A stretch of 64,000 nucleotides of DNA, from NCBI RefSeq assembly GCF_000422085.1, contig NC_021741.1, forward strand, positions 1,054,001 to 1,118,000, written 5' to 3'. The notes below the pieces were generated by a model, which was given only the letters and a program-made list of their open reading frames with translations, was not told where the DNA came from and searched no databases. Shown here piece after piece: positions 47,678 to 63,388 of this stretch. The position numbers and the translations under genes were made by a program. How positions within the stretch are numbered: position 1 is the first letter of the stretch; every line of letters begins with the position of its first letter. This DNA comes from Serratia liquefaciens ATCC 27592. Lineage in GTDB: Bacteria; Pseudomonadota; Gammaproteobacteria; Enterobacterales; Enterobacteriaceae.

Positions 47678-48544
47678 TTATTTAGGTTGAACGTCGTGAT
47701 ATTCCTCGCAGGCCTGCAAGGTATTTTGGATCAGTGTAGCAACGGTCATTGGACCCACGCCACCCGGAACCGGAGTTATGTAGGCGGCGCGTTCGCTTGC
47801 GGCGTCAAAATCCACGTCGCCGACCACTTTACCACTTTCCAGACGGTTAATGCCGACGTCCACCACGATAGCGCCAGGTTTTATCCAGTCGCCCGGAATA
47901 AAGCCTGGTTTGCCGACCGCGACGACCAGCAGATCGGCGTTTTCAACGTGGTGGCGCAGGTTCTTGGTGAAACGGTGGGTTACGGTGGTGGTGCACCCGG
48001 CCAGCAGCAGCTCCATGCTCATTGGGCGGCCGACGATGTTGGACGCGCCAACCACTACGGCATTCAGGCCATAGGTATCGATGTTGTAACGCTCAAGCAG
48101 GGTGACGATACCGCGTGGGGTGCAAGGCCGCAGTTTTGGCGCACGTTGGCACAGGCGACCAACGTTGTACGGATGGAAACCGTCGACGTCTTTATCCGGA
48201 TGAATACGCTCCAGCACTTTGACGTTGTCGATACCGGCCGGCAGCGGTAGCTGCACTAAAATGCCGTCGATCTCACCGTCGGCGTTCAGCCGATCGATCA
48301 GCGCCAGCAGTTCAGCCTCACTGGTGGTGGCAGGCAGATCGTAAGAGCGGGAGAGGAAGCCCACTTCATCACAGGCGCGGCGCTTGCTGGCGACGTAAAT
48401 CTGTGAGGCGGGGTTCTCGCCAACCAATACGACAGCCAGGCCCGGAGCGCGTTTTCCGGCGGCCAGACGTTGTTTAACTTGCTCAGCCACTTCGTTTCTA
48501 ACCTGCTGCGCAATCGTTTTACCATCAATAATCTTTGCTGACAT
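47678..48544 (-). CDS. folD: FolD, methylene-THF dehydrogenase/cyclohydrolase
   Basis: This bifunctional enzyme interconverts methylene-, methenyl- and formyl-tetrahydrofolate. The 288-residue protein (same as E. coli) has the active-site [13 protein letters not shown] (YxxxK), QLPLPAG, the NADP site [13 protein letters not shown] and [10 protein letters not shown]. The ybcJ gene follows. Confidence 0.97.
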
Positions 48545-48752
48545 CAGTGAGGAAATCCATCAATTAAGAAAAGCGGGGGATGACGCTATTTTGTCAGAAG
48601 CGGAGCGCGCTGTCAGGCGCTGAATCGCGATCGGCGGTGTTTGCCAGGTGTGATTTACGCTTTTTTTATGCCAACGACAGGATCCTCTACGCCTTTTTTA
48701 CCGCTCGCTGCGTAAGCTGTGGCTATTCACACTGAGGACGGGAGTCAAAATC

Positions 48753-48962
48753 ATGATGCTCATTACCCGGTTGCACTTTTTACACCTGCCTGTTGATAGC
48801 CAGGCATGCCAACCAAGACACGTGGGGGAAACGGTATTCGATTCGTCCTTGCATCCGGCTGACGTTGCGCAGCTGATTGCCCTGCATCAGCTTGCCGCAC
48901 ACAAAACGCCGCCTTCATGGAGAACGCGCCTGGGCGCATTGTGCCGGAGGTTGCGTGCATGA
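48753..48962 (+). CDS. Small hypothetical protein, 69 residues
   Basis: The frame starts ATGATG after GACGGGAG, a good ribosome site, and ends with an Arg-rich tail (WRTRLGALCRRLRA). I do not recognise it. Its stop overlaps the next start (ATGA), so the two are likely translated together. Both lie between folD and argU, where E. coli has fimbrial genes. There is no long competing frame in the region. Confidence 0.55.
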   Translation: MMLITRLHFLHLPVDSQACQPRHVGETVFDSSLHPADVAQLIALHQLAAHKTPPSWRTRLGALCRRLRA

Positions 48963-49255
48963 GAAACATCAAAGGGATGGGTTTTATGCTGCTGGTATGG
49001 GGGCCAATGGCGCAGGCTTCGTTAAATGCCGCACCGGTTAGCGCAGCCTTACTGCAGCCGTTATCGGCGGCTTGCAACCTGTTGGCGGCTCAGCATGCCG
49101 ATTGGGGAAACATCAACGCGATGGTGCGCTCGGCTCGAGTTTGCCTGCAGCGTCCGGCAGAACAGCAACAGTCGGATCGTATGCCAGAACAGGCTGATGC
49201 CGGCCTGGTACAGCGTAACAGCAGCCTGTTACCGGACTTAACCCAAGGGAAATGA
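48959..49255 (+). CDS. Small hypothetical exported protein
   Basis: From the ATG overlapping the previous stop the product is 98 residues. The N-terminus MRNIKGMGFMLLVWGPMAQA resembles a Sec signal peptide, with likely cleavage after AQA, so it may be periplasmic. It has two Cys (CNLLAAQ and RVCLQRP) that could pair. No family is recognised. Confidence 0.5.
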   Translation: MRNIKGMGFMLLVWGPMAQASLNAAPVSAALLQPLSAACNLLAAQHADWGNINAMVRSARVCLQRPAEQQQSDRMPEQADAGLVQRNSSLLPDLTQGK

Positions 49256-49339
49256 CGCGGTTAACTCAATGCGGGGCGGCGGTAATGACTGAAAATTCAT
49301 CATAAAGCACGGCTGCTGACGTAACGTCATGAAAAGGCA

Positions 49340-49367
49340 TTGACTCAATGATCTCTGACCGTATAAT
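49340..49367 (+). promoter_or_regulatory. argU promoter
   Basis: TTGACT (-35, 49340-49345) and a perfect TATAAT (-10, 49362-49367) are 16 bases apart, with a GC-rich discriminator after. It lies 33 bases before the tRNA and fits a strong stable-RNA promoter. Confidence 0.85.
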
Positions 49368-49400
49368 CCAACCCGCAACTCCCGGTTGCCGCATCCCAAT

Positions 49401-49477
49401 GCGCCCTTAGCTCAGTTGGATAGAGCAACGGCCTTCTAAGCCGTAGGTCACAGGTTCGAGCCCTGTAGGGCGTACCA
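49401..49477 (+). tRNA. argU: tRNA-Arg (anticodon TCT), argU-like
   Basis: The 77-base gene folds as a full cloverleaf: acceptor GCGCCCT with AGGGCGT (one G-U end pair), D-arm GCTCAGTTGGATAGAGC, anticodon stem ACGGC/GCCGT with loop CTTCTAA (anticodon TCT at 49435-49437), T-arm CAGGTTCGAGCCCTG, discriminator A and encoded CCA. Place after folD matches E. coli argU, the DLP12 integration site. The intact tRNA 3' end would be one attachment site of the element that follows. Confidence 0.96.
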
Positions 49478-49498
49478 TTTAAAATCAATCACTTACGC

Positions 49499-50659
49499 TT
49501 ATTCTCCAATAGCTACATTTTCCCAAAGTGCCAGATTAGTGACATTGCCCGCCAAGACTTCGTCAATTTTTCTCGCATGTTCGGTTAAATGGGAAGGGGA
49601 AAGGTGAGCGTAACGCTGTACCATCTCTATGCTCTCCCAACCCCCCATTTCTTGTAGTGCTGAAAGTGGTACCCCTGCCTGAACTAACCAGCTTGCCCAG
49701 GTATGCCTCAAGTCATGGAAACGGAAATCAGTAATGCCTGCACGTCTTTTTCCTGTGTTCCACGCTGAGTTATCGTCAACGCGCATTTTTCTGACAGCTG
49801 GTGTCATACCTCCGTCAGGACGTTTGCGTGCCGTCGTATGCACAAACACATATCGGGGGTGACGACCGATCTGATCCCTTAGCGTTTTGCATGCGGTATC
49901 ATTTAGAGCAACACCTATGGCTTTACCGGCTTTGGCGTTCTCTGGGTGTATCCAGGCAACCTTTCTTTGCATATCAACTTGCGACCACTCCAGATCAATG
50001 ATGTTAGAGCGACGAAGCCCTGTTGCCAGTGCGAACACGACAACAGGACGGAATTGCTCAGGCATGCATTTGAGCAGGGTGGCCGCTTCATCCTTGGTGA
50101 GCCACCTCACACGTTTACTTGTTGGCTTTCTGACTTTGATGACCGGGGCCTGGCGTAACCACTTCCATTCATCCGCGGCAATCTTCATCAGACCGCGCAT
50201 AAATGATAGGTGCTGGCTACGAGTTGCTGCTGATACTGGTTTGGGCTCATAGGCCGGTACAGGTTTCCCTCGAAGTTCCGCTGCGGCTTTCCTTAACTCC
50301 CAACGCTGCTGGTGCTTCCTGTTCGGCATTTTGGCGACCGCTGCCATAATCCTATCTTCCGTGATCCATGAGAGATTTTTCCCAGCGAAATACTGAAGGA
50401 AAAACTCTATTTTCGTGCGGTCATCGTCCAAAGAGCGTTTTTCTTCTTTCTCTGTAAGCCAGCGTAGGCAGGCTTCATCAAAAGTATGCTCCGCAATTTC
50501 CCCTAACTTGTTAACCCGCCAGGCTTCGGCTCTTAACTGATCGTAGAGTTCTTGCGCTTGTTTCCTGTCTGCCGTATTAAGGCAGCGTCTAATTCTTTTG
50601 CAACTGCCCGGTTCGACATAGTCGCAGTACCAATTGCCGTAACGTTGTTTAAGGGCCAT
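49499..50659 (-). CDS. IntD-like tyrosine integrase at argU
   Basis: The 386-residue phage integrase closely resembles the DLP12 integrase IntD, which also uses argU. It has an Arg-rich N-terminal arm-binding part, core-binding helices (about 60-170) and a catalytic domain with ATGLRRSNIIDLEW (first Arg), [10 protein letters not shown] (HxxR) and the nucleophile Tyr in QRYAHLSP, so all catalytic residues are present. AAGGT precedes the ATG. It points toward argU, with its stop 21 bases from the tRNA end. Confidence 0.95.
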   Translation of the reverse strand: MALKQRYGNWYCDYVEPGSCKRIRRCLNTADRKQAQELYDQLRAEAWRVNKLGEIAEHTFDEACLRWLTEKEEKRSLDDDRTKIEFFLQYFAGKNLSWITEDRIMAAVAKMPNRKHQQRWELRKAAAELRGKPVPAYEPKPVSAATRSQHLSFMRGLMKIAADEWKWLRQAPVIKVRKPTSKRVRWLTKDEAATLLKCMPEQFRPVVVFALATGLRRSNIIDLEWSQVDMQRKVAWIHPENAKAGKAIGVALNDTACKTLRDQIGRHPRYVFVHTTARKRPDGGMTPAVRKMRVDDNSAWNTGKRRAGITDFRFHDLRHTWASWLVQAGVPLSALQEMGGWESIEMVQRYAHLSPSHLTEHARKIDEVLAGNVTNLALWENVAIGE

Positions 50660-50901
50660 CCGTTGTTACCTTTTTGTTGATGGCCGTCTGCATTCACGGC
50701 CTGATTCTGTGTCTCCCTGCCGTAATAGGCAAGGCATTCTGATTTGAGAATTTCATAACGTCCCTTTCCATGTGGGCCACTTTTGTTTGCGGTTAGCAGT
50801 CCAGACTTGATTAGGGTTCTTACAGTTCGCGGTGACTTTTTCAGGAAGGCAGATGCCTCCGGTAAGGTGAATGGCACATCATCAATGTTTATCTCTGCCA
50901 T
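50533..50901 (-). CDS. Excisionase-like HTH protein
   Basis: The 122-residue frame begins with a winged-HTH like that of Xis/AlpA proteins: LPEASAFLKKSPRTVRTLIKSGLL, then GKGRYEILKSECLAYY. The C-terminal half looks disordered and overlaps the integrase start by 127 bases. Place just upstream of int on the same strand fits a recombination directionality factor. The functional C-terminus could be shorter than the full frame. Confidence 0.65.
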   Translation of the reverse strand: MAEINIDDVPFTLPEASAFLKKSPRTVRTLIKSGLLTANKSGPHGKGRYEILKSECLAYYGRETQNQAVNADGHQQKGNNGWPLNNVTAIGTATMSNRAVAKELDAALIRQTGNKRKNSTIS

Positions 50902-50910
50902 GGTGGGTCT

Positions 50911-51283
50911 CTACTTTTTATTCGTATCAATCCGCATACAGGCGCAACTTAGACGCATCCAGGCTGGCGGTTTGGCCGGCCAATACGGCGCGATCTTTGC
51001 TGCGTGTTTGTCGAGGATCTCACGGTAGGAAAATTTATTGGTGGGGGAGCGGTATTCGGTCAGGGCTTCTACGGCGGTGCTGCGTAGTAGGTCATCTCTG
51101 AGCGCCACGGTACTCACCCAGCAAGCGGTCAAACAATTGACGCCGTAGGATGGCGTTTATGGTTTCCTGATGCTCCCCATTGAGGTAAGTCCATCTTGGT
51201 TTGGTTGTCTCTTTTCCAAAACCTGCCGCAGATTTAGAGTAATTGGCGAATTTTGGTGAGACGGATACGACCTTGATCCCCAT
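50911..51283 (-). pseudogene. Unrecognised gene remnant, frameshifted
   Basis: Reading from an ATG at 51283 on the minus strand gives VVSVSPKFANYSKSAAGFG and so on for about 60 residues, ending in TGA near 51092. A second frame then continues with DDLLRSTAVEALTEYR and FSYREILDKHAAKIAPYWP to a stop at 50911. The two together look like one gene of about 120 codons broken near 51095. I do not recognise the product. It lies just upstream of the Xis-like gene. Confidence 0.4.
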
Positions 51284-51802
51284 ATGGATTACTGCCGTAG
51301 CGCAGCCAGTGAGGTGTCCTGCGACGCGTGTAACGATGGCTTCATTGATGCCGAGGTATTCACGAACAAAGTTCACACGCCATTCCCAGCCAAAGAAATT
51401 GTTAAAGCTTCGCGGCAGTGGGGCGTAGAAGGATTTAGACCGTCTGAGTATGAAGTTCATCGTGAATTGAGAGAGCGGGTGAGGGTGCTTTGCCCGAAAT
51501 GCAACGGCAAGCGAGTAATCAAGACGTCGTGCAATGACTGTCGTGGCCGGTGCGAGGTAATTGATAGAGAAGAGTCAGAGCGGCAGGGCGTGCCTGTGAA
51601 GAGGCCGTGCAAGCGTTGCTCTGGTCGGGGTTATGAGCGTATCCCATCAACTGATGCTTTCAGAGCGATAGGCGGCATTACCGAAAGCATATCGTTGGAT
51701 ACTTGGAAGAAATCTGTGAAGCCGTTCTATGACGAATTGATAATCCATTTGGAAGTGGAAGAGTCGATAGCTGATGCAGCGCTAAGGATGACAACTGAAT
51801 AG
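51284..51802 (+). pseudogene. Phage late antiterminator Q, 5'-truncated
   Basis: The frame matches the C-terminal two-thirds of phage-82-type Q proteins: YCRSAASEVSC, then DnaJ-like zinc motifs CDAC, CPKC, CNDC and CKRC, then GVPVKRPCKRCSGRGYERIPS and the KPFYDELI tail. Q proteins let RNA polymerase pass late terminators. The frame upstream of 51284 is closed by a TGA at 51257, so the N-terminal part is missing and replaced by minus-strand sequence. Late genes nearby are also broken. Confidence 0.75.
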
Positions 51803-51904
51803 TGCGCTAAAAAATAGTGAGCAATTTTATCGCAAGCTATTTACTTTTCCCGAAACTGTGGTAGTTTTCTTCTAACGATGGGTGTTGTGTGCCTGACGTT
51901 GATT

Positions 51905-51929
51905 AGCCCGCCGATGTGCGGGCTTTTTC
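51905..51929 (+). terminator. Terminator after Q, possibly tR'-like
   Basis: AGCCCGC, six bases, GCGGGCT is followed by TTTTT. It lies 103 bases after Q, where lambdoid phages have the terminator that Q overcomes. Confidence 0.75.
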
Positions 51930-51966
51930 ACATCTAATGGTTGCGTTATGAGCTGATTCAGTTATC

Positions 51967-51980
51967 TTGTACATGTACAA
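51967..51980. promoter_or_regulatory. Operator-like palindrome before phd
   Basis: TTGTACATGTACAA is a perfect 14-bp palindrome ending 13 bases before the antitoxin start. Phd-type antitoxins repress their own operon through such sites, so autoregulation is likely. Confidence 0.65.
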
Positions 51981-51993
51981 GTGAGAGGTCATT

Positions 51994-52266
51994 ATGAAAA
52001 CTATTAGCTACACAAAAATGAGAGAAGAACTTGCCGATATTCTGGATGCGCTCCGTAACGGAGAGAGCATCACTGTTACTCAGCGCGGACGTCCTGATAT
52101 TACAATAGCTGCCGCACAAGAGCCGCGCCGCTACATGGGCAAGGAAAGTAAAAGCCTAATTAGCATGGTGTTCAAATCTAACAGTAAACGTGTCAGTTTT
52201 GATGAGGCCAAGGAAAAGACTAAAAAGAAACACGCTGGCATCATCAAAGCGCTGGAGGATAAGTGA
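51994..52266 (+). CDS. Phd/YefM-family antitoxin
   Basis: The 90-residue protein has the N-terminal Phd/YefM DNA-binding fold (ISYTKMREELADILDALRNGESITVTQRGRPDITI) and a Lys/Glu-rich, likely disordered C-terminus that would cover the toxin. GAGAGG is the ribosome site. Its stop overlaps the doc ATG. Together they are a type II addiction module that helps keep the element in the cell. Confidence 0.88.
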   Translation: MKTISYTKMREELADILDALRNGESITVTQRGRPDITIAAAQEPRRYMGKESKSLISMVFKSNSKRVSFDEAKEKTKKKHAGIIKALEDK

Positions 52267-52673
52267 TGGCGATTGACTTTCTTACCACGGAGCAGGTTAT
52301 TGAGATTCAGTCGTCTACCTTACCTAACAGTGGCCCACCTAATATGGACCTCCTGGAAGGTGCGTTGAATCGCATTCATACATTGCATCAATATGAAGAG
52401 TGCGACGATGTTTTTATGTTGGCGGCTATGTACTTGGTTGCTATCGCTAAGGCTCACGCATTTAACGATGCAAACAAGCGTACAGCGTTTCAGGCTGCTT
52501 CTATCTTTTTAATGATGAATGGTTTTGAGCTAGGAACATCGTTTAGGTTAGTTAAGCTTACAGTTATGGCTGCAATGGATAATGCAAACATGCGTGACGT
52601 TGCGTTTTCCTTAATGCTTCTTTCTGACTATGAAGATCATCTGATGGCTGATTATCCGGAAGAATATATCTAG
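52266..52673 (+). CDS. Doc-family toxin (Fic fold)
   Basis: The 135-residue protein has the Doc variant of the Fic motif, HAFNDANKRTAF, with His64; the P1 Doc motif is HIFNDANKRTA. P1 Doc phosphorylates elongation factor EF-Tu and stops translation. I chose the ATG in TGATG, overlapping the antitoxin stop; a GTG three bases earlier is an alternative. All motif residues are intact, so the toxin is probably active and held by its antitoxin. Confidence 0.88.
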   Translation: MAIDFLTTEQVIEIQSSTLPNSGPPNMDLLEGALNRIHTLHQYEECDDVFMLAAMYLVAIAKAHAFNDANKRTAFQAASIFLMMNGFELGTSFRLVKLTVMAAMDNANMRDVAFSLMLLSDYEDHLMADYPEEYI

Positions 52674-52789
52674 TACGAACAGCAGAAGGGCGCATTTAGT
52701 TTTGATACGCACTATCGAACCCTTTGGTGGGGGCTAAGAGCGTCCCTCGATGTGAAGTGACGATAGGGCAAGACCTGTAACCATTCGAA

Positions 52790-52816
52790 CCCTGGCCTAA
52801 TCGCCGGGGTTTTTTA
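52790..52816 (+). terminator. Terminator after the phd-doc module
   Basis: CCCTGGC, six bases, GCCGGGG (one T-G pair) is followed by seven T. It isolates phd-doc from the next operon. Confidence 0.75.
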
Positions 52817-52857
52817 CTGATAGGTAAAACCTTCTTGCTAGCTGAATATCACAGGTG

Positions 52858-52877
52858 TACTGTATGTTTATACAGCT
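52858..52877. promoter_or_regulatory. LexA box 1
   Basis: TACTGTATGTTTATACAGCT matches the SOS consensus at 16 of 20 positions and has the obligatory CTG, ten bases, CAG (52860-52875). It lies 89 bases before the preferred start of the nucleoid-associated-like gene. Confidence 0.82.
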
Positions 52878-52883
52878 ATATTG

Positions 52884-52903
52884 AGTTGTATATAAATCCA
52901 GTA
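52884..52903. promoter_or_regulatory. LexA box 2
   Basis: AGTTGTATATAAATCCAGTA matches the consensus at 15 of 20 positions, with TTG, ten bases, CAG. It starts 26 bases after box 1. A TATAAA inside it could be the -10 of the operon promoter, so LexA would block RNA polymerase. Tandem boxes are typical of tightly held SOS genes such as colicins. Confidence 0.68.
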
Positions 52904-52965
52904 CGCAGAGTGTGTGTTTTTTTATTATCATCCTCTGACATTGATAAGAAATCATGAAGGTTGAT

Positions 52966-54156
52966 ATGGAAAGCAAAACTGTAAAATGCGTAGGATGCGG
53001 GCGAGAAAATGATTCAGCTGATGATGCATGCGTATGTGGGTATGATGAGTCCCTAGAGCAAGAGGAGATCGTCTATAAACCGCATAATGCTATAACAGCG
53101 AGGTTAGACCTAGTCCCTGGCGCTGCAGGTACAGAATTCAAGGCGACGACTGGTGAAATCTGGGGATTGGACGCGGAGGATGTTAAATCTTTCATACTGC
53201 AGGCTGAGAGAAAATTCAGATTAAAGCGGAAAAATCATGGATTTATTACAAAAAATGACCTGCCAAACAGCACTGCATCAGCGTTACGAAGATATATCAA
53301 TGGAACCATAGATTTTAAGTCATTTGTAAATGCATTTATGCAGAATATAAAAATTGAAGCGGCTCTTAATAAGCGACGCCCTGCTGGTGGCTCGATAATT
53401 TTCATACATTATCACACAGACAATGAAGTTGAAAGTTTAGGTCGACTTTTTATTATTATGGTTGATAATAGTAGTGTGTTTAAATTTAATGAGCAGTTGG
53501 TACCAGAAGTATTACCTTCTATAGATATGGATGCTCTACGCCAAGCAGTATTAACTGATTTGACCCTTTTTGATTCTATATACTCAGAAAATAATGGGGA
53601 ACCATATCTGCAGTTTATAGCTGGGAAGTCAAGTAGCAATTTTTTCAAGAAAGCTATAGGATGCGAGGAAGACCTAGATAATAACCGCAGTGTTGAAGAG
53701 GCTGATAGGGCTGTTAAAGATTTCATTGTGCATATGAAATTAAAAACAGTTGAGAAAATGAAGGTCTTAGATGCAGTCAAACAATTAATGCATGAAAAGC
53801 TTAAAAGTAAAACAAATAATAAAATATCAACATTAGACATCGAAGCGACTATTGATAAGGTTTTAGATGAGCAGTCTCCTGCCAAGGGTAAGTTCGCAAA
53901 ATTTGCAGCTATTGGTGAATATAAAATTAATGAGTATTTTGAACCAAGCATAAACTCTGAAAAAAAATTCGGAAAGGTTGCTCTTGCTGATGAAGAAAAT
54001 GACTATACTTGTAGTATTTCTGTAAATGCTATAAGTACTGATGATACAACTAAAGCTAAAGCTATTTATAAAAAAGGCGATGGGTTATTAGTCATTAGAT
54101 TATCTGAACCAGATATTGTTAAAATGGATCAAATATTCCAAGACGAGAAAAAATAA
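52966..54156 (+). CDS. YejK/NdpA-like nucleoid-associated protein with zinc ribbon
   Basis: The 396-residue product resembles the 37-kDa nucleoid-associated family (YejK/NdpA, NA37). Blocks that align in order are RLFIIMVDNSSVFKFNEQL, then DMDALRQAVLTDLTLF, then YLQFIAGKSSSNFFKKAIGC, then DRAVKDFI. YejK binds nucleoid DNA. Before this core comes a four-cysteine cluster, CVGCG and CVCGY, not in E. coli YejK, which looks like a zinc ribbon. I chose the ATG at 52966 since GAAGG lies five bases before it; an ATG at 52954 has a weaker site. The gene is AT-rich and heads the LexA-boxed operon. Confidence 0.7.
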   Translation: MESKTVKCVGCGRENDSADDACVCGYDESLEQEEIVYKPHNAITARLDLVPGAAGTEFKATTGEIWGLDAEDVKSFILQAERKFRLKRKNHGFITKNDLPNSTASALRRYINGTIDFKSFVNAFMQNIKIEAALNKRRPAGGSIIFIHYHTDNEVESLGRLFIIMVDNSSVFKFNEQLVPEVLPSIDMDALRQAVLTDLTLFDSIYSENNGEPYLQFIAGKSSSNFFKKAIGCEEDLDNNRSVEEADRAVKDFIVHMKLKTVEKMKVLDAVKQLMHEKLKSKTNNKISTLDIEATIDKVLDEQSPAKGKFAKFAAIGEYKINEYFEPSINSEKKFGKVALADEENDYTCSISVNAISTDDTTKAKAIYKKGDGLLVIRLSEPDIVKMDQIFQDEKK

Positions 54157-54170
54157 CTTGAGGAGGGAGA

Positions 54171-55310
54171 GTGGATACTAACAATGAATTTGACAGTTTT
54201 GTTGCAACATTTCTCTCCTCAACTGTTGTGATAAAGGATGGCTATGCTTGTATTGAAATTAATGATGACGTTGCACCAGACATTTTTTTAAGTTGGTTGA
54301 GAAAATTTGGTATAAGTGCCGATACAGATATAAATGTGAATGAGAAAGAGTTTGCTTTTTCTATTGGCGTATCTAGTTTTCGTGATAATTCCTTCATATA
54401 TCCATCAATGAATTCTTTGTGGCGAGAGTCTTGCGCATTATTAAAAGTACCAACTAGCTTTCTTGTCTTAAAGGAGCAGGTTTCATCGCTGTTTGAATGT
54501 GAAGAAATTAGCTCCATCAGACAGTTTGTTACATGGCGGGCTGTTTTAAAAGAAATTCAAAGCTATGAGTTTAGCAATAAAATAATATGGTATCTTCCAG
54601 GTGATGATGGTGGGAAAGAAATCGTTGTTGGTGTACATGAAAACTATGCTCGGGCTAAAGATATTGCCTTCAGTCAAAGTTCATTAAGTAGTGCCAATAA
54701 ACTATTAAGCGTGATGGAGTTGAAGGATGCTCAAGAGGGGGAAAGAAAGTTAATTCTAAAAAAAGCTGTTAGTGATTTTGTTGGTGACAATGGTTCAATT
54801 GATGATGTTATCTCTGCTGGAGAGAGAGTATACAATCGTTATAATGACCTGCTTGACTTATACACTAAGCGGTTTTCAGTAAATAAAATTCTTTCTGAAA
54901 TAGAATCGAAAAATCTTGAATATACAACAAAAATAAATGATTTTATTTCATCAAGTCAAAGTAAAGCGTTCACGATCCCTGGTGCTCTAATTGCTGTTGG
55001 AGCACTGGCAAAAACTAGTGGCTTTTGGGAGGGAACATTGGTACTGATTGGTTTGTGGATGATTCATTACATAACAAGAACTTCAAATGATGTTCATAGG
55101 GAATCATATGAAAATCTTAAGCTAGGTCTTGGTGAAGCCTTTGATAGATATAATCAGTTTGATGAAGGGGCTGAGGTTAGAAAAGCCGCAAAGAGAACAC
55201 TTAAATCCTTAAACTCAAAAATTGATACGGCTGGTACCAGGTTAAATAATATTGATAACCTTGGCAGGGCAATGATAGTTATAGGTCTGTTGTATCTTGT
55301 TTTAAAATAA
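54171..55310 (+). CDS. Unrecognised membrane-anchored partner protein
   Basis: The 379-residue protein starts with GTG after AGGAGGGAGA, 14 bases past the previous stop, so the two genes are one operon. Residues 1-180 look soluble, 180-265 mostly helical and possibly coiled coil, and the end is hydrophobic: about 267-281 (TIPGALIAVGALA), 286-302 (GTLVLIGLWMIHYI) and 364-378 (GRAMIVIGLLYLVL). So the protein is probably tied to the inner membrane by its C-terminus, with a helical hairpin between the segments. I recognise no family. The base composition is AT-rich like its partner. Confidence 0.75.
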   Translation: MDTNNEFDSFVATFLSSTVVIKDGYACIEINDDVAPDIFLSWLRKFGISADTDINVNEKEFAFSIGVSSFRDNSFIYPSMNSLWRESCALLKVPTSFLVLKEQVSSLFECEEISSIRQFVTWRAVLKEIQSYEFSNKIIWYLPGDDGGKEIVVGVHENYARAKDIAFSQSSLSSANKLLSVMELKDAQEGERKLILKKAVSDFVGDNGSIDDVISAGERVYNRYNDLLDLYTKRFSVNKILSEIESKNLEYTTKINDFISSSQSKAFTIPGALIAVGALAKTSGFWEGTLVLIGLWMIHYITRTSNDVHRESYENLKLGLGEAFDRYNQFDEGAEVRKAAKRTLKSLNSKIDTAGTRLNNIDNLGRAMIVIGLLYLVLK

Positions 55311-55402
55311 CATTATTTATGTTTAAGTGTTTTATTTCTTATTTGTTTAATGTTTTGCATTGAATATTACTTTAATCGAATAATCTTAATTTAAATTTTA
55401 GA

Positions 55403-55427
55403 GCTGCGCTTATGCGCGGCTTTTTTT
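55403..55427 (+). terminator. Terminator after the two-gene operon
   Basis: GCTGCGC, TTAT, GCGCGGC (one T-G pair) is followed by seven T, ending the operon. Confidence 0.85.
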
Positions 55428-55476
55428 ATGTCTCACGCCCGGCGTTCGCTGAGCGAAGCGAGCAAAGGAGCAAAAA

Positions 55477-55548
55477 ATGACTGAGCCGGTAGGGACTGGT
55501 GCAGCGACAGCCACATTAACTAGTGTGACTGTGGCGGGGCTGCTATGA
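55477..55548 (+). pseudogene. Phage holin, truncated at 23 codons
   Basis: The frame MTEPVGTGAATATLTSVT ends VAGLL then TGA. It matches the N-terminus of a holin type common in enterobacterial prophages, where the sequence goes on through two or three membrane segments. AGGAG precedes the ATG. Here the rest is missing, so lysis is lost. Confidence 0.6.
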
Positions 55549-55851
55549 GTCACGTTCTGGGGTAAAGCTTCAGTATGTTGGCTTTGACGGCCACAAAATC
55601 CCGATCACAGAGGATGAGGCTGAGCTATTCGCGGCCCGGTTGGATAAATACGTGGAAGAGACTGGCGCTTATTTCGGCTTCATTGAGCAAGGGTTTATCC
55701 TGGGAAGCTTTTACGACGAAACAAAACCTCCGCCAGCATTCGTTACTTTCAGAAGGGAACCGCGCATCTGATATTCAAACGTCTGGATCTGGTGGAGAAG
55801 ATGAACGACATCATCGCAAAGCACTATCCGGGGATGTTGGCAGCGCGGTAG
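55549..55851 (+). pseudogene. Phage gene remnants, DUF4942-like C-terminus
   Basis: One frame reads YVGFDGHKIPITEDEAELFAARL to a TGA at about 55770. A second, one base out, reads FQKGTAHLIFKRLDLVEKMN and ends IIAKHYPGMLAAR at 55851. The second part resembles the end of DUF4942 proteins found in prophages and islands. Either one gene is frameshifted or two are fused by a deletion. Confidence 0.5.
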
Positions 55852-55982
55852 TTCATCGTTACAATCACCGGGCTCGAAATCGCTGATGTTTTCAGCGAAG
55901 TACGATTGGGGGCCTAATTGGGGGCTCCGGTGTTTTTCGAACAGAGAAAAGTTCTGTAATAACAAGGGTTGTGTGGTCTGTA

Positions 55983-56004
55983 TTCGAATCCTGTAGGGAC
56001 CATT
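55983..56004 (+). repeat. Degenerate second attachment site (tRNA-Arg 3' end)
   Basis: TTCGAATCCTGTAGGG matches the argU T-arm and acceptor TTCGAGCCCTGTAGGG at 14 of 16 positions and is followed by ACCATT (argU: CGTACCATTT). Both copies are followed by similar bases and then the 3' end of an integrase gene on the minus strand. It is likely an att site of the same integration system, now decayed. Confidence 0.7.
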
Positions 56005-56026
56005 AAGAAACAATGACTTACAGCCA

Positions 56027-56450
56027 TCACCCAAGCTTCTCAATTTCAATATGGGACAGTTTTGGGACTAAGCCTCCAAAAATCGCATCGATCTGCCTCA
56101 CATGTTCAGTTAAATGATTGAGTGCCAAATGCGCGTTACGCTGAACCATTTCTATGCTCTCCCAACCCCCCATTTCTTGTAGCGCTGAGAGTGGTACCCC
56201 TGCCTGAACTAACCAGCTTGCCCATGTATGGCGAAGGTCATGAAATCGAAAATCAGTTATTCCAGTCCGCTGCTTACCTGTATTCCATGCTGAGTTATCG
56301 TCAACGCGCATTTGCTGGTGCCATACCTCCGTCAGGACGTTTGCGTGCTGTAATATGTACAAAAACATACCCCTAGTAGCGACCAATCTGATCCCGCACG
56401 TTTGTAAGCAGTATCATTAGGAGCTGTACCAATGGTTTTCATCGACTCGT
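56027..56450 (-). pseudogene. Second IntD-like integrase, 5'-truncated and inactive
   Basis: The C-terminal part is very close to the intact integrase: [33 protein letters not shown] and [11 protein letters not shown]. The catalytic Tyr is replaced by Asn (QRNAHLALN), so this copy cannot cut DNA. Upstream of about 56330 the homology goes on in other frames, with frameshifts, then stops near 56450. It sits beside the second att-like sequence just as the first integrase sits beside argU. Confidence 0.85.
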
Positions 56451-56620
56451 TTACGTCTGGGGCGGAACCCTATTGTCATGGCATTATGATCTTGTTTTTG
56501 TATCAGAGAGGGCACAACTCAACTAAATGGTAGGAAGACTAGGGTTTGTTTAACTTAAAAATGCAAGTTAACAATGAATTATCAAACATAGTTTATTAAC
56601 TAATCCTAGTGAGGCTCAAC

Positions 56621-56779
56621 ATGAATAATATCTTTTCTGGCTTTGACGCTAAAATCTTGGCCGAGGCATTTGGTGTAAGCCGCGAAACAGCAGTGAAACT
56701 CCAACTGGAAAGCACCAAGCAAGGTAATTTGCTGACAGTTGTGCAGGCGTTGGTTCTTCAGAATCCGATTGGGCTGTAA
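56621..56779 (+). pseudogene. Cupin fragment (legumin-like block)
   Basis: The 52-residue frame MNNIFSGFDAKILAEAFGVS then RETAVKLQ resembles the inter-domain block of two-domain cupins, which include plant 11S seed proteins and bacterial relatives. Neither barrel is present, so this is probably a relic. There is no clear ribosome site. Confidence 0.4.
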
Positions 56780-56847
56780 GCAACCAAGAGTCAGGGGGCT
56801 GCGTGCAAATGAAGGAAGAATGCATAAAATTTCCCAAAACATAATTC

Positions 56848-56870
56848 AAGGCCGCATAAGCGGCCTTTTT
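56848..56870 (+). terminator. Terminator-like hairpin
   Basis: AAGGCCGC, ATAA, GCGGCCTT followed by TTT. A perfect 8-bp stem within the decayed island. Confidence 0.75.
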
Positions 56871-56916
56871 CATTTCTATCACCCTGCATCGGGGCAGAGT
56901 CCCGGGAGGGGAAGTT

Positions 56917-57135
56917 ATGGAAATGCCAAATGGTCACCATAGCTGGGATGACATCAGTGACATTCTCGCAGCTTTCTCACCGGCGGGAACTGGCTTGGTA
57001 ACAAAACGCCGAGCAGGGAAATATGCTTGTGCAGCAGTCAGGACCGATCACCATCTTGCACACGGAAGACACCCGAAATTGCGCAATCATGGCAAAACAT
57101 CAGCAGAGAGAGCAGCCATTACATCAGGAGAGTGA
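56917..57135 (+). CDS. Unrecognised short frame, 72 residues
   Basis: GGGAGGGGAAGTT is an excellent ribosome site before the ATG. The first half (MEMPNGHHSWDDISDILAAF) looks coding; the later half is rich in Arg, His and Ala and may be out of frame with a lost original. No family is recognised. Confidence 0.35.
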   Translation: MEMPNGHHSWDDISDILAAFSPAGTGLVTKRRAGKYACAAVRTDHHLAHGRHPKLRNHGKTSAERAAITSGE

Positions 57136-57156
57136 AATCTATCAGCGGAAATCAGG

Positions 57157-57297
57157 ATGCGATCAAAAACAATAAATGCGCTGCTGAGCGCATCCCTGAT
57201 GAATGAGTGGAACGGATATAAACGTCGCCAGCGCCAATCGTCTTTCTGCTCCCTGAATTACTATTCAGCCTTACGAACAATCAGCGTTGCAAGGTGA
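57157..57297 (+). CDS. Unrecognised short frame, 46 residues
   Basis: The frame MRSKTINALLSASLMNEWNG continues to ALRTISVAR. TCAGG just before the ATG is too close for a standard ribosome site. It may be a phage gene remnant; I do not recognise it. Confidence 0.25.
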   Translation: MRSKTINALLSASLMNEWNGYKRRQRQSSFCSLNYYSALRTISVAR

Positions 57298-57498
57298 TAT
57301 CAGGGTAATATCGGCAGTTATACGTTGGAATTGATACCAGCTTTATAAATCTCACCAACCCAGTATCCAGTCTGATCCAATGGTGTGAGAATCGCACACA
57401 TTGAAAAGAGCGTTCTATTAAATTGCAATATGATTTCTCTGCACTTGCCAATATGAATTATACGAATATGAATAATTAGCTTCTGTAAGGAGGGGGTC

Positions 57499-57720
57499 GT
57501 GGGATGCATTGTTTGTGAACTAAAGAGCTCAAATAACTATGAAGTGAAAACAGAAGAGGATTATAGGTTAGCTCTATCTCTTGCATCGGCAGGGTTGATC
57601 ACTCTTTCATTTGGTGGGGAAGGGGCTTCGTGTTTAAAAATAAAAAATAAGCTCATCCCTGTATATATTTGTTCGGCGACTTATAAGTTAAAGATGATTT
57701 TGGGAAAAGACTTGATTTAG
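57499..57720 (+). CDS. Hypothetical protein, 73 residues, GTG start
   Basis: AAGGAGGGGGTC is a strong ribosome site before GTG. The product has CIVC near the start, a helical middle (EEDYRLALSLASAGLITLSF) and a short C-terminal strand region. It is AT-rich like foreign DNA. No homologue comes to mind; the bases before it (57298-57498) show no convincing gene. Confidence 0.45.
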   Translation: MGCIVCELKSSNNYEVKTEEDYRLALSLASAGLITLSFGGEGASCLKIKNKLIPVYICSATYKLKMILGKDLI

Positions 57721-57888
57721 CGTTTAAATTTAGCATAAACAATTACTTGCATTTGGACGACGTTCTGCGATTAGCCTGATGGTATTGCAGGGGCATTCAG
57801 TGCGTGTCATCGACAATGCTGACGTATAATCCTCCTCAATAGTAGGATCCTATGTCATACAATCTCGGAAATTAACCAAAAGAAGAAT

Positions 57889-58035
57889 ATGGACAAGGTG
57901 AACCTGGATCTTACGGCGCCAGGTTTAGCGAACAAAGAGCGTATTAACCAGCCAGTGATAGCTATTAGGTGGAGAGAGCAGCCTAGAGATCTGCATGAAT
58001 ACTTTCTTGAGCGTGTGGCACATTGGACTACCTAG
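57889..58035 (+). pseudogene. Phage-like gene remnant, frameshifted
   Basis: The frame [20 protein letters not shown] continues to [15 protein letters not shown] and then a stop at 58033. One frame over, GEYKAINRIRADLSENGRSQP continues to a double stop near 58107, followed by a terminator. The two parts read as one small gene broken by a frameshift. The product is not recognised. Confidence 0.4.
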
Positions 58036-58112
58036 AGGTGAGTATAAGGCTATCAATAGGATCCGAGCCGATTTATCAGAAAATGGCAGAAGCCAACCAT
58101 AATAAATAACAG

Positions 58113-58133
58113 AACCCGCTACGGCGGGTTTTT
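58113..58133 (+). terminator. Terminator after the broken phage-like gene
   Basis: AACCCGC, TACG, GCGGGTT followed by TTT. Confidence 0.75.
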
Positions 58134-58316
58134 AAATGGGAGCAATTCATGGAAAAAAAGAAAAGGATGAAAGCCATGAAAGGGCCATATCCGCCACTGC
58201 AGTTTATTTAAGGCCATCAGCTTACTCCATATATCGGCCAGATTTCTACGAACAAGGTGCGTGAGTGGGGGCAACGATAATTCTTCAGCGATAGTTGAGC
58301 CGTTGTTCAGTCGTGG

Positions 58317-58517
58317 TTAGTGGTCGGTTACGAACGGAACTGCGTAATACGTTGCTGTATTTTTCACCGGGGCTTTATGTACAAATAACCATATATGATG
58401 ATTGCCAACCTGTCGCCGCAGAATTGCGCGATAGGTGTCGTTGAGAGCGACAACTATCGCGCGGCCAGATTTGCTACCCTCTGAGCACCAGCCTTGGCAG
58501 CATGAACCTTGCTGCAA
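58317..58517 (-). pseudogene. Third IntD-like integrase remnant
   Basis: The stretch [20 protein letters not shown] then [13 protein letters not shown] aligns with the middle of the intact integrase (GKAIGVALNDTACKTLRDQIG and so on). Only this central part, without catalytic HxxR or Tyr, remains. It has the same strand as the other two integrase copies and marks the probable right part of the integration hotspot. Confidence 0.75.
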
Positions 58518-58655
58518 GTGTTCAGTCCCCTAGACTTCTCGCACGAGCGCTAGCCAATACGATCCACAGAAAATGAATCTATAATGGCCCCCTGAGCGGC
58601 TCATGATGTGTTAGTGCATTCAGACGCTTGCCTGCGGTTTGCCGGAGAATACTGA

Positions 58656-59075
58656 CTAAGGGTTTTTTCTATTATCCAGACTAAACCCGCCAGCCCCTAA
58701 GAGAAACAGGGCGATAAAACCACCGGACATCGTGATGTTTTTCATCAGCATCAACTGACTTTGTAGGTCGGGACCACTGTGAAAAATCAGTCCTGAGATG
58801 ATACAGAATCCGAAGAACAGAATGGCGACAATCCTCGTCTGAAAGCCCAGTAAAAGAGCCACACCGCCGCCTAGCTCGGTTAATATCACCAAAGGCAATA
58901 ATATTGCTGGTACGCCCATCGACGCCATATACTCAGCTGTCGCGTTATAAGCCGAAATTTTGCCTATTCCAGCAATAATGAATACAGATGAAAGAAGTAC
59001 TCTCATTAAAACTGACACCAAACCGAAGAATAATTTGTTGTCGATGATATTGTCAATTTTGCCTTTTATAGACAT
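58656..59075 (-). CDS. DoxX-family membrane protein
   Basis: The 139-residue protein has four membrane segments (about 16-36, 53-75, 81-98, 112-130) with the DoxX signature RVLLSSVFIIAGIGKI and LELGGGVALLLG-like ITELGGGVALLLGFQTR. AGGAAG precedes the ATG. DoxX proteins are often found with redox enzymes. It follows an SDR gene on the same strand after a 201-base gap, so it may have its own promoter. Confidence 0.85.
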   Translation of the reverse strand: MSIKGKIDNIIDNKLFFGLVSVLMRVLLSSVFIIAGIGKISAYNATAEYMASMGVPAILLPLVILTELGGGVALLLGFQTRIVAILFFGFCIISGLIFHSGPDLQSQLMLMKNITMSGGFIALFLLGAGGFSLDNRKNP

Positions 59076-59276
59076 TAACGCTTCCTCAAAATATCAAATA
59101 ATATAGAAGTTGAAAATTAACGACCGGTTTGTAATTACACACCGGGCCGCGTATTCAATGGCTCGCTGATGGTGGTGGCTAAACCCTGGGCTGGGGGAGT
59201 AATGGTTGTGGCCTGAATAAAAGTAAAGAGTGCTTAAACAGCAAACTAACGACGTTATTATCCCCCCGCATTACGC

Positions 59277-60140
59277 TCACATCTTCTTATTCTCATTGCC
59301 CGCCTGCTTATTCATGATATCGTGCTCAGCGGGAGGGTTGCCATATAATTGACGTAAGGATTTTGGTATATGCCCATTGTTATCGATTATATTATAATGC
59401 TCACCCACTTCAGCCGTCAGTAATGTACTGCCGGATAAGGCCTTTAAGTTAGGGTCGCTAAATAGCGCCCAAACCACGCGTCCACAGAATTCAGGGCTCT
59501 CAAATCCCAATGTGTCACGGAGAGCGCGCGTTTTCGGGTCGGAGTTGGCAAGCTCAACCATCGTCTCTGTGGCTACGAAACCTGGCCATAGGGATACGGC
59601 GGAAACGTTAAAGGGGGCGAAGTACTCGGCGTAGGAAGCGGCCAATTTATCCAGGCCTGCCTTTGAAGCGTAATAGGCTGGATCATGCACCTTCGCATCG
59701 GCATAGAAAGATACGTTGACGATTAACCCGCGCCCACCGGCAAGCAACAAGCGCGCCGCATGCCAAGTCGCAACATGATGAGAACGTAAGCCAACATCCA
59801 GTATATCGGCAAGATGGATGGTGGCTTCCCAAAAGGGTTTCACTCCCATTTGGCTGTTAAGCGTGGTGGCATTATTGACGAGGATATTGAGATAACCGTG
59901 CTTCTGCTCCACCTGTTTAAATAGGCGTGCTATCTGTGCATCGTCAGACATATCGCAAACAACCGCTACTCCTTGCCCCCCCGCGTGGGTTATTTCACTG
60001 ACCACCTTTTCGACTGACTCCTGGTCACGACCCGTAACATAGACAATCGCACCTTGCCGTCCCAGTTCCTTTGCTATTCCCTTACCTATTCCCTTGCTTG
60101 ATCCTGTAATAACGGCGATGACATCTTTTTCTGTTTGCAT
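59277..60140 (-). CDS. Short-chain dehydrogenase (DHRS1-like)
   Basis: The 287-residue SDR has TGSSKGIGKGIA (NAD(P) motif, residues 12-23), NILVNNA and the catalytic YYASK with upstream Ser in VNVSFY. The length and WPGFVATETM loop resemble DHRS1-type SDRs. AGGAG precedes the ATG. It lies 41 bases after the upstream oxidoreductase stop, so the two are likely co-transcribed. Substrate unknown. Confidence 0.87.
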   Translation of the reverse strand: MQTEKDVIAVITGSSKGIGKGIAKELGRQGAIVYVTGRDQESVEKVVSEITHAGGQGVAVVCDMSDDAQIARLFKQVEQKHGYLNILVNNATTLNSQMGVKPFWEATIHLADILDVGLRSHHVATWHAARLLLAGGRGLIVNVSFYADAKVHDPAYYASKAGLDKLAASYAEYFAPFNVSAVSLWPGFVATETMVELANSDPKTRALRDTLGFESPEFCGRVVWALFSDPNLKALSGSTLLTAEVGEHYNIIDNNGHIPKSLRQLYGNPPAEHDIMNKQAGNENKKM

Positions 60141-60181
60141 TATTTGCTCCTGATGACAAGGGCCAGGGCCTTCATCTTCGC

Positions 60182-61171
60182 TTAAACGGTGACAACAATT
60201 TTGCCTAGCTGGGCGTTCGCTTCTAGATATTGATGTGCCGCAACTATCTGATCAAACACAAAGGATTTCGCTATAACCGGCTTTAATTCGCCACGACTAA
60301 GCGCCGCCAAAATAAAGGTTTTAGCGTTGGCGAGGCGCGCCGCATTTCCTACAATTTCGCTGTAAGCAAATCCCCTGATCGTCAGGCCTTTCGGGATCGC
60401 CAAACTTGCCGGGAAAGGGGTGTTTTCACCGCTCAGATTGCCGTACTCTATCAGCGTGCCTCCGGGCGCCAAGATCTCGCATAGCGTGGGCACACCTTCC
60501 CCCCCAATACAATCGAAGATAACTCGCGGCGGCCTATCGCCGGTGATTTCTTTAACTTCAGCTACGCTTTTCTCACCCTGGGAAGTGACAACCCATGATG
60601 CACCGATATCGAGTAACGCCTGGCGTTTGGATTCGGTTCTTGAGGTTGCTATCACCCGAGCGCCAAGCATGTTGGCAATTTGAATCGCGGCGATACCAAC
60701 GCTACTGGAAGCGGCAGTGACCATGACATAGTCGTCAGAGGTCACTTCTGCAACGTCAACCAGTGCCCCATATGCCGTGATGTACTGCATCCACGCCGAG
60801 GCCGCTTGCTCCCAGGATAAATTTTCCGGATGCTTAACCACGTAACGGGCTGGGTAGTGAATAGTTTCACCATAGGTAGGCCACCGATCCATAGCCAGTG
60901 AAGGGATAACACTCACCGCGTCGCCAGGGATAAGGCCTTGCACTTGTGCACCAACGGCGTCGATAATCCCGGCCGCTTCATACCCCATTCGCTGCGGAAA
61001 TACCGGAGGAAATGCATACTTACCGCGACGCAGTAGCGCCTCCGCCCGATTTAAACCTATAGCTTTCACCTTAATACTGACCTCATCGGCGGCTAAGGCA
61101 GGGAGATCCACGTCCACAATTTTTAATACATCTGGTTCACCGACACGATCAAACTGGATAACCCGCGCCAT
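60182..61171 (-). CDS. Zinc-free MDR / quinone oxidoreductase-like protein
   Basis: From the Met at 61171 (AAGGGG before it) the protein is 329 residues. The MDR fold is clear: GroES-like N-terminus (DEVSIKVKAIGLNRAEALLR), MGYEAAGIIDAVG, and a Rossmann half with VTAASSSVGIAAIQIA and LGARVIATSRTESK. The zinc-ligand Cys residues of alcohol dehydrogenases are missing. It probably reduces quinones or enones with NADPH. An in-frame Met eight codons upstream is unlikely. Confidence 0.85.
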   Translation of the reverse strand: MARVIQFDRVGEPDVLKIVDVDLPALAADEVSIKVKAIGLNRAEALLRRGKYAFPPVFPQRMGYEAAGIIDAVGAQVQGLIPGDAVSVIPSLAMDRWPTYGETIHYPARYVVKHPENLSWEQAASAWMQYITAYGALVDVAEVTSDDYVMVTAASSSVGIAAIQIANMLGARVIATSRTESKRQALLDIGASWVVTSQGEKSVAEVKEITGDRPPRVIFDCIGGEGVPTLCEILAPGGTLIEYGNLSGENTPFPASLAIPKGLTIRGFAYSEIVGNAARLANAKTFILAALSRGELKPVIAKSFVFDQIVAAHQYLEANAQLGKIVVTV

Positions 61172-61263
61172 TTTGTTCCCCTTTATATAAAACACGTAAA
61201 CTAATACGAATTTATGACTGGAGTTTTTGACACAAAAATAAGTGTAATTTTATGCCTGTTCCA

Positions 61264-62199
61264 TTATTTCATGCGTATGACGGTTTTCCCCCGGTATCCT
61301 CCGCTCTTGACGGAGTCCAGCGCTAACGAAGTATCCTTTAAATAAAATACTCGCGGAGGCGTGAAGGGAATCTCACCTTTGGCAATCTCTTTCGCAATAG
61401 AATTCAATTTGGCAGGGTCAAATTTCATTTGAAAAAATGTCCCTTTTCCTGGTTGGCTGTCAGGTGTTTTTTCTGCGATATCAACGGCAACTGAACTTAC
61501 AATTCGGCCGTTTGGTGCCAGAGTGTTCCAGAGTGCTGCCAGGGAGCGTCCACCGACCAAGTCAAGAACGAGGTCAACTCCCTTTATCATCGATAAGGCA
61601 TGAGCGTCGTTATAGTCAACGACATCTGTGGCACCCAATGACTTGACATAATCTCTGTTTTTTTGCGAAGCCGTAGCGATGACCTTTGCCCCTGCGCGAT
61701 GAGCCAAAGGAATAGCCAAAGAGCCTACTCCACCAGCCGCGCCCTGGATCAAAACGGTTTGCCCAGCCGTTAATTCCCCGATATCAAATAACCCCGTCCA
61801 CGCCGTCGAGCCGGCAACCGGCAGGGTTGCTGCGACGGTTTCGTCCAGATCATCGGGGATGGGGATTAACAGATCCGGCTCAATTTCTATCGTTTCGGCA
61901 AATGCCCTGCGGTTCACAGGCTTCCCTATCACGCGATCGCCGACGTTGAAGGTGGTGACGCCAGCCCCCACTTCAACAATCTTTCCTGCGAACTCGCCAC
62001 CCAAAATACAGGGAAAAGTTAATGGGAATATATGCTTAAGCAGGCCATCACGCAGTTTCCAGTCTAATGGATTAACCCCTGCGGCGGCGATCTCCACAAT
62101 GACCTTGCCCGGTGAGACCTGGGGCCTGTTGATGGGCTGAATTTTGATCGTGCCCTCAGCGCCATAACTATACATAACTGCTGCTAATTGCTGATTCAT
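61264..62199 (-). CDS. NADPH:quinone reductase-like protein
   Basis: The 311-residue MDR protein has GVNPLDWKLRDGLL, LGGEFAGKIVEVG, and the nucleotide motif GAAGGVGSLAIPLA, with DLVLDLVGGRS further on. No zinc site is seen. AGGAG lies before the ATG. It heads the minus-strand cluster (QOR, QOR-like, SDR, DoxX) and is divergent from a LysR regulator that likely controls it. Confidence 0.88.
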   Translation of the reverse strand: MNQQLAAVMYSYGAEGTIKIQPINRPQVSPGKVIVEIAAAGVNPLDWKLRDGLLKHIFPLTFPCILGGEFAGKIVEVGAGVTTFNVGDRVIGKPVNRRAFAETIEIEPDLLIPIPDDLDETVAATLPVAGSTAWTGLFDIGELTAGQTVLIQGAAGGVGSLAIPLAHRAGAKVIATASQKNRDYVKSLGATDVVDYNDAHALSMIKGVDLVLDLVGGRSLAALWNTLAPNGRIVSSVAVDIAEKTPDSQPGKGTFFQMKFDPAKLNSIAKEIAKGEIPFTPPRVFYLKDTSLALDSVKSGGYRGKTVIRMK

Positions 62200-62283
62200 G
62201 TTGATCTCCTAAGCTATTTTTTCACTATATCTGTACCAATAATAATTAATAAGATGCTAAATTATGGACGCCGCGGACCAAAA

Positions 62284-63183
62284 ATGAGACAGCTCATGAA
62301 TATGAATGCATTGCAGGACTTCATAAGTGTGATTACACACGGCAGCTTCAGCGCGGCAAGTCGCGCAACGATGACGCCTAAAGCCTCTATTTCACGACGG
62401 ATCCGTCAGTTGGAAGATGAACTGCAAACGCGCTTGTTTGAACGTACGAATACCGGTTTTACCTTGACCGCCGAAGGAACCCTGCTATTCGAGCGAATAA
62501 AGCCTTTGGTTAACGAGCTCAACGACATCAAAACTGACATGATGGAACAGACCGGTAGCCCCTCAGGAAAATTACGGATTAGCGTTCCTCCCGTTATCGC
62601 ATTTGATACCTTGGGTAAACTGGCTGCTCGTTATAGAGCGCTTTACCCATTGGTCGAACTTGAACTTATTGCTGACAGCAGATTGGTTGATCCTATTAGA
62701 GAAGGTTTCGATGCCGTTATTCGTGTAAATCCGATGGCGGATGAAGAGATGATAGGTATAAAAATATTCAAAGAGACATTAATATTTGTTGCGTCACCGC
62801 AATATAGGGAACAACTGGCCTTGGGAGACCCGCTCACGGAACTTCCTTTCATCAGTATTGGAACGCAGTGGAAACCGAATCAAATTAGTACCGTTTTGGA
62901 GGGGGAACCACGACATTTCAATGTGAACACGGAGTTATATATCTCCTCTCCGTTTATCACCCGTTCCACCCTCATTTCGGGAGTCGGTTCCGCACTGCTA
63001 CCGGAAGCTTTGGTCGCCGATGACATCAAAGCCGGCAGGTTGCTTCACCTGGGGGTAAGTGAACAGCCAGAGCTGATTTTATGGTGCCTTTATCCGAGTA
63101 GGCGCTATGTCACCGGAAGATTAAGAGCCTTTATTGATTTATTGAAGGAAACATTTTCACAGGAAAGCAGTATTCATCATTAA
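62284..63183 (+). CDS. LysR-family regulator
   Basis: The protein has an N-terminal winged HTH (FISVITHGSFSAASRATMTPKASISRRIRQLEDELQTRLF) and a LysR substrate domain (about 90-290; ISVPPVIAFDTLG, SPFITRSTLISGVGSALLPEALV). From the Met at 62284 it is 299 residues; in-frame Met codons at 62296 and 62302 are as likely, and the longer reading from 62188 overlaps the divergent gene. It is in the classic place to control the neighbouring oxidoreductases, with an inducer unknown. Confidence 0.88.
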   Translation: MRQLMNMNALQDFISVITHGSFSAASRATMTPKASISRRIRQLEDELQTRLFERTNTGFTLTAEGTLLFERIKPLVNELNDIKTDMMEQTGSPSGKLRISVPPVIAFDTLGKLAARYRALYPLVELELIADSRLVDPIREGFDAVIRVNPMADEEMIGIKIFKETLIFVASPQYREQLALGDPLTELPFISIGTQWKPNQISTVLEGEPRHFNVNTELYISSPFITRSTLISGVGSALLPEALVADDIKAGRLLHLGVSEQPELILWCLYPSRRYVTGRLRAFIDLLKETFSQESSIHH

Positions 63184-63388
63184 CGGTTCGAAAAACAAAA
63201 CCGGCGATCCTGTCGGGTAAGCAGTGAATGATGGCTGCACTTAAGCGTGCAAGCAGCCATTGAACCGCCTGCAACGCTGTCCTCCAGTCCCTGGCTCGAA
63301 AATCCATTTAATTACCCGGCTAACGACTATGTTGGCTGCCGACGCTGTGCTAGTTTCTGTAGCAAATCATCAGAATGCAGGACATAAC

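Follow-up and report, generated by a model that had tools for sequence, protein, structure and literature searches.

The stretch of Serratia liquefaciens ATCC 27592 DNA analysed here (64,000 nucleotides of contig NC_021741.1, referred to below as the window) contains a two-gene operon that is very probably DS-1, an anti-phage system of the DefensePredictor study (Science 2026, PMC13092281). In our reading, to which we assign a probability of roughly 0.6, it is an intact DS-1 operon belonging to a LexA-repressed branch, and its first product, an NA37 protein, would sense phage DNA and trigger a membrane-associated partner. The pair is already known as anti-phage proteins, and its novelty is cut by the 2026 paper; the new element is the predicted LexA control of one DS-1 branch.

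The identification draws on the NCBIfam names, the domain parts and one annotated RefSeq row. Both genes exceed the curated cut-offs of their models, gene 1 matching NF053868.1 (DS1_1_antiphage) over residues 17-383 with 441 bits (cut-off 330) and gene 2 matching NF053869.1 (DS1_2_antiphage) with 403.9 bits (cut-off 315), and they are adjacent on the same strand with gene 1 first and 14 bases between them. One of 12 listed RefSeq rows is annotated with 'anti-phage protein' and 'nucleoid-associated anti-phage protein'. A first-pass annotation, made from the sequence without database searches, had proposed a defence role for the pair, and this agrees with the match of both genes to NCBI models of anti-phage proteins; its description of the second protein as unrecognised does not hold, as NCBIfam already names it (DS1_2_antiphage, 404 bits). 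According to the available text of PMC13092281, 94 transcription units were cloned and 42 were validated against a panel of 24 phages, the YejK nucleoid-associated domain is among the domains new to defence (a figure legend uses ZF, TM and CC), and phages plate less well on E. coli that carries a DS system with a YejK domain. The follow-up section in that text treats DS-2, 3, 5, 6, 8, 9 and 11 and hence gives no mechanism for DS-1.

The two frames of the operon occupy 52954-54156 and 54171-55310, both on the + strand, and are accompanied by the following features, in window coordinates:

52788 to 52822, + strand: terminator-like hairpin and T run between the upstream phd-doc genes and the operon (RNA fold -15.2 kcal/mol, z -3.9)
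52858 to 52877, no strand: LexA box 1, TACTGTATGTTTATACAGCT, the single site with an exact core within 64 kb
52884 to 52903, no strand: LexA-like box 2, degenerate and in tandem with box 1, AGTTGTATATAAATCCAGTA (2 mismatches in the core, 5/20 overall)
52966 to 54156, + strand: gene 1 of DS-1, N-terminal four-Cys zinc ribbon and NA37/YejK domain (NF053868.1, PF04245, Foldseek match to 9be2)
54161 to 54166, + strand: Shine-Dalgarno AGGAGG for gene 2 (sequence)
54171 to 55310, + strand: gene 2 of DS-1, alpha/beta N-terminal part, long helices and two to three hydrophobic C-terminal segments (NF053869.1, predicted model, hydropathy)
55400 to 55423, + strand: intrinsic terminator at the operon end, stem-loop-stem followed by TTTT (RNA fold 55395-55435, z -4.4, and pattern scan)

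The 14-base spacing, the AGGAGG and the terminator after the operon were all as first described. The pattern (consensus) scan gave only the downstream one of the two flanking hairpins, missing that at 52788-52822, and promoter-like sites were no commoner than in shuffled sequences (10 found, 9.3 expected).

Though the frame of gene 1 opens at 52954, the ATG at 52966 (396 aa) is the likelier start because P0001, a homologue with 96% identity, begins at this internal Met. The placement of gene 1 in the NA37/YejK family, suggested earlier from the translation, was borne out by Pfam (NA37, PF04245, 75.5 bits against a gathering cut-off of 24.6) and by a structure search with Foldseek, in which the best match was the E. 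coli YejK structure 9be2 (E 2.6e-14). The four-Cys cluster added at the N-terminus is likewise real, the CxxC...C(x)xCG ribbon being present in all 28 aligned family members. Gene 1 falls well short of the YejK equivalog model NF001557 (67.5 bits, curated cut-off 341), and a separate core YejK, scoring 370.7 bits, is found elsewhere in the same genome.

Gene 2 encodes a protein of 379 aa from a GTG start. Its predicted model (pLDDT 84.2) has an alpha/beta part up to approximately residue 165 and long helices at 217-279, 285-328 and 334-378 that bear the hydrophobic segments. When hydropathy was scored over 19-mer segments with thresholds of 1.4 and 1.2, the window protein had a single segment above 1.4 (360-378), and two further stretches (267-285 and 10-28) passed 1.2; the one at 10-28 is probably not a membrane segment. 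About three C-terminal membrane segments had been claimed, and those at 360-378 and 267-285 were recovered, but the middle one (approximately 286-305) fails the threshold in the window protein while its counterpart passes in several relatives. Of the 69 gene 2 family members, one lacks any segment at 1.4, the other 68 show one or more, and in 11 of these the number is three or four; about three membrane segments are therefore likely. No Pfam family was above cut-off for the window protein, and across the 69 members any one family reached at most seven, all of them weakly. Channels of the CorA type carry a GMN motif between two membrane helices; examined by eye, the gene 2 translation does not contain it.

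Gene 1 and gene 2 travel together. Profile searches with gene 2 gave 69 loci, 7 in genomes and 62 on viral contigs, with some loci present in more than one copy. At least 750 upstream bases were available in 64 of them, and in all 64 gene 1, whole or in part, lies directly before gene 2; in the other five the contig ends too soon to judge. The objection foreseen earlier, that homologues of the pair might not be kept together in other genomes, thus fails. The spacing ranges from a 74-base overlap to an 86-base gap, with a larger gap in L083 because gene 1 is there in pieces. In the reverse survey, starting from gene 1, gene 2 is beside it in 17 of 18 viral loci and the remaining one stops at the contig edge; 17 of the 18 contigs had already been found via gene 2, the single new case being L123. 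Both frames are full in 55 of 65 pairs, two are cut by contig ends, and in eight a gene is in pieces (L056, L066, L074, L082, L083, L091, L095, where the broken gene 1 also meets a contig end, and L096), the pair thus being lost in some prophages. Values of dN/dS lie between 0.05 and 0.27 in 17 of 22 gene comparisons among relatives; dS is saturated in five, including all four that involve the window's own genes, and so the selection seen is that on the relatives. Hence, the concern that the genes might be decaying in close relatives is largely answered, apart from the broken copies and these saturated comparisons.

DS-1 is sparse, as gene 1 exceeds the DS1_1 cut-off in only 2 of 99 genomes searched (relatives and the window's own, which is one of the two). 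A protein identical to gene 2 (P0028) represents 10 member sequences on 23 contigs in the protein database, and a relative at 76% is found in Serratia nevei. The E. coli-type query was covered to 80% or more in 105 of 5426 genomes of E. coli. Two annotated plasmid records, from E. coli and Klebsiella, have antiterminator Q on one side of the pair and holin genes on the other, the pair being on the opposite strand. Remote pairs were found in congeners (L149 4158-6489, L150 4008-6382 and L151 4198-6669) and have neither the zinc ribbon nor a LexA site. Their gene 1 products score 214.7, 129.5 and 109.7 bits, respectively, with DS1_1, all under the cut-off, and their gene 2 products 104, 43 and 32 bits with our own gene 2 profile; the two scanned with the NCBIfam DS1_2 model (L149 and L150) are also under its cut-off. 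The existence of these pairs indicates a kind of system wider than the named DS-1 family. In L149 the remote pair is followed by a gene (6641-7306) whose 221-aa product, judged by eye, appears to begin with a membrane segment; it is a possible third component. A PDC-M07A gene lies near the remote pair in L150. Upstream of a Pseudomonas pair, L039 (48-3500) encodes a 1150-aa protein with no Pfam or PADLOC match at E 0.001, which may be a defence gene.

Of the two LexA-type boxes described earlier, box 1 stands: it has the sole exact CTGT-N8-ACAG core in the window, lies 88 bases before the ATG at 52966 and differs at 4 of 20 positions from the LexA consensus. Box 2 is present, but with two core mismatches and 5/20 overall is weak on its own; a degenerate second box likewise follows the first, at 25-29 bases, in L040-L044, the five loci closest to this one. 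In the 5.28 Mb host genome, TACTGTATNNNNATACAG gave 23 matches with at most one mismatch on both strands, corresponding to 16 distinct places, compared with one match for the reversed control. Six places match perfectly, among them box 1 and sites at genes that we take, by eye, to be recA and umuD; a place with one mismatch precedes what is presumably dinI.

A survey of 70 loci (two with only about 200 upstream bases), grouped into 27 clusters at 85% identity, looked in the 300 bases before the gene 1 frame for sites with at most one core mismatch and at most 5/20 overall, and counted a cluster if any member had one. Sites were found in 23 loci and 11 clusters; among 746 background windows of the same length, taken from other parts of one locus per cluster, two had a site. 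This contrast is not a probability because the clusters are related. On the tree, ten of the 11 LexA-bearing rows belong to a single 11-row clade (support 100/99), and the eleventh, from Pseudomonas, lies outside it and has a site with one core mismatch. The box at 52858-52877 is thus one conserved with the module in a single clade. One could instead take the sites for coincidental matches or for elements of adjacent phage genes, and the operon for a plain DS-1 expressed constitutively, box 2 being weak and 16 of the 27 clusters lacking any site. The contrast with the background, and the position of the best site 96-148 bases upstream of gene 1 (193 in L039) despite differing neighbours, make this very improbable. 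Among those neighbours, tape-measure genes are found in L040, together with NlpC/JAB, and in L050; L033 has methylase and ATPase genes, and L046 a tail-tube-like gene just below the cut-off (23.3 bits, cut-off 23.8). Because the neighbours differ between loci, the site travels with the module. Box conservation, with the same switch in related prophage copies, suggests that this branch is turned up on DNA damage.

The boxes of this clade would also suit an SOS effector of the prophage itself, made at induction mainly to tune the resident phage's lytic switch or kill the damaged cell, with anti-phage activity secondary; in the available text of PMC11077077, lambda RexA tilts the CI-Cro switch to lysis independently of RexB. 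We regard this as improbable, since the two genes stay paired in the branch that has no LexA sites, each of them matches an anti-phage model, and the neighbours vary by locus, a DNA methylase (L033) and a PDC-M07A gene (L150) being among them.

In the preferred reading of an intact, LexA-repressed DS-1, LexA would hold the operon down until the SOS response, provoked by phage-caused DNA damage or by prophage induction, removed it from the tandem boxes, whereupon both proteins would be made in quantity. The zinc-ribbon YejK-like protein would then bind the DNA of the phage, the likeliest target being a state indicative of replication (altered topology or nucleoprotein), and signal to the membrane-bound partner through the cytosolic domain and coiled coil of the latter. 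Gene 2 would in turn alter the inner membrane, as a channel or by depolarisation, and halt the infection, sparing neighbouring cells and shutting out competing phages. SOS control fits both DNA-damaging phages and the moment of prophage induction. The branch without boxes indicates that such control is an added layer and, with 16 of 27 clusters free of any site, it lies outside the core mechanism.

An arrangement closer to Kiwa can be envisaged, in which the membrane protein detects injection at the envelope and brings its YejK-like partner into place as a clamp on incoming DNA, blocking replication or late transcription with neither membrane damage nor death. The parts list is alike, Kiwa being described in the available text of PMC12904381 as a membrane protein and a DNA-binding protein, and the large N-terminal part of gene 2, free of clear membrane segments, would suit docking. 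We consider this possible though rather unlikely, as no sequence link to KwaB was found (hhalign probability 0.4% against one KwaB) and there was no PADLOC match, and SOS control would come late, after injection.

Several points weigh against our reading of a LexA-repressed DS-1 with a membrane effector. The membrane segments of gene 2 come from hydropathy, and its model gave no significant match to solved folds (best E 0.17). A gene is broken in eight of the 65 pairs. L045 belongs to the LexA clade and has no site, and the 16 site-free clusters include the E. coli branch, where none of 25 loci has a site within 300 bases upstream. Finally, 'DS-1' as a whole word is absent from the main text of PMC13092281 as available, and therefore the link to that paper runs through the NCBI names and the domain parts.

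The operon lies in an island next to folD and tRNA-Arg(tct) (47678-49477), with an integrase starting at 49499. When 21 genomes (20 relatives and the window's own) were searched, six had the right flank (63395 onward) approximately 130-140 bases after the tRNA, i.e. an empty site (with BLAST alignments for three of the six), and the remaining 14 relatives had the left flank with the right flank unmatched. As the empty site joins the tRNA to the right flank, the island spans approximately 49480-63394 (about 13.9 kb). It contains the integrase, an HTH gene, antiterminator Q, phd-doc, the DS-1 pair, a second integrase remnant and metabolic genes. No virion protein was recognised among the 14 island proteins scanned, smaller frames lying outside the scan; hence the earlier placement of the pair in a prophage fits many relatives but not this copy, which is in an island with phage leftovers. 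The Phd/Doc-type toxin-antitoxin pair (51994-52673; PF02604, PF02661; TIGR01550, 64.4 bits) is directly upstream of the operon. At the DNA level the remnant at 56027-56386 shares 83-86% identity with the integrase at 49499-50659, a sign of elements stacked at the tRNA. DoxX, short-chain and zinc dehydrogenases and a LysR regulator occupy the right part.

The logic of the first-pass annotation is largely borne out. We tentatively suggest, at somewhat less than even odds, that this DS-1 clade is a damage-inducible defence in which LexA keeps the genes off until SOS, also when raised by prophage induction, switches on a YejK-like DNA sensor and a membrane effector, so that an induced or damaged lysogen excludes competing phages. 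If so, a phage-defence system is wired into the SOS regulon, a topology-related nucleoid protein has turned sensor, and some prophage defence genes answer to DNA damage, beyond infection. DS-1 is validated but without an explained mechanism in the DefensePredictor text as available, and the LexA branch offers an experimental handle, as SOS state should switch the defence in one branch and not the other.

Compared with known systems, the operon has the gene order and domain parts of DS-1 (NF053868, NF053869) and passes both cut-offs, but it sits in the LexA-box branch, unlike the E. coli copies. With the host nucleoid-associated protein YejK/NdpA it shares the NA37 family (PF04245) and the best structural match, and differs by the zinc ribbon, the membrane-gene partner and the low equivalog score. 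The E. coli member inhibits gyrase and topoisomerase IV (work cited in PMC10053502, as available), so that a nucleoid protein family reported to act on topoisomerases would be linked to phage sensing. The RexA-RexB pair of phage lambda is likewise prophage-borne and, in the available text of PMC11077077, RexA binds DNA and works with the inner-membrane protein RexB; the latter differs in being approximately 16 kDa, with four predicted segments and expression from the repressor-maintenance promoter. No Rex family was among the Pfam matches at E up to 1, and the RexA/RdgC fold was not among the matches listed for gene 1, an absence that proves nothing. Kiwa (KwaA-KwaB) also pairs a membrane protein with a DNA-binding one and couples membrane sensing to DNA binding (PMC12904381, as available), but no sequence similarity was found, NA37 being the sole Pfam match of gene 1 at E up to 1 (KwaB domain PF16162 not found). 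Though homology to these systems is not claimed, we infer, mostly by analogy, that gene 1 would sense and trigger the membrane protein much as RexA-RexB or Kiwa are thought to do.
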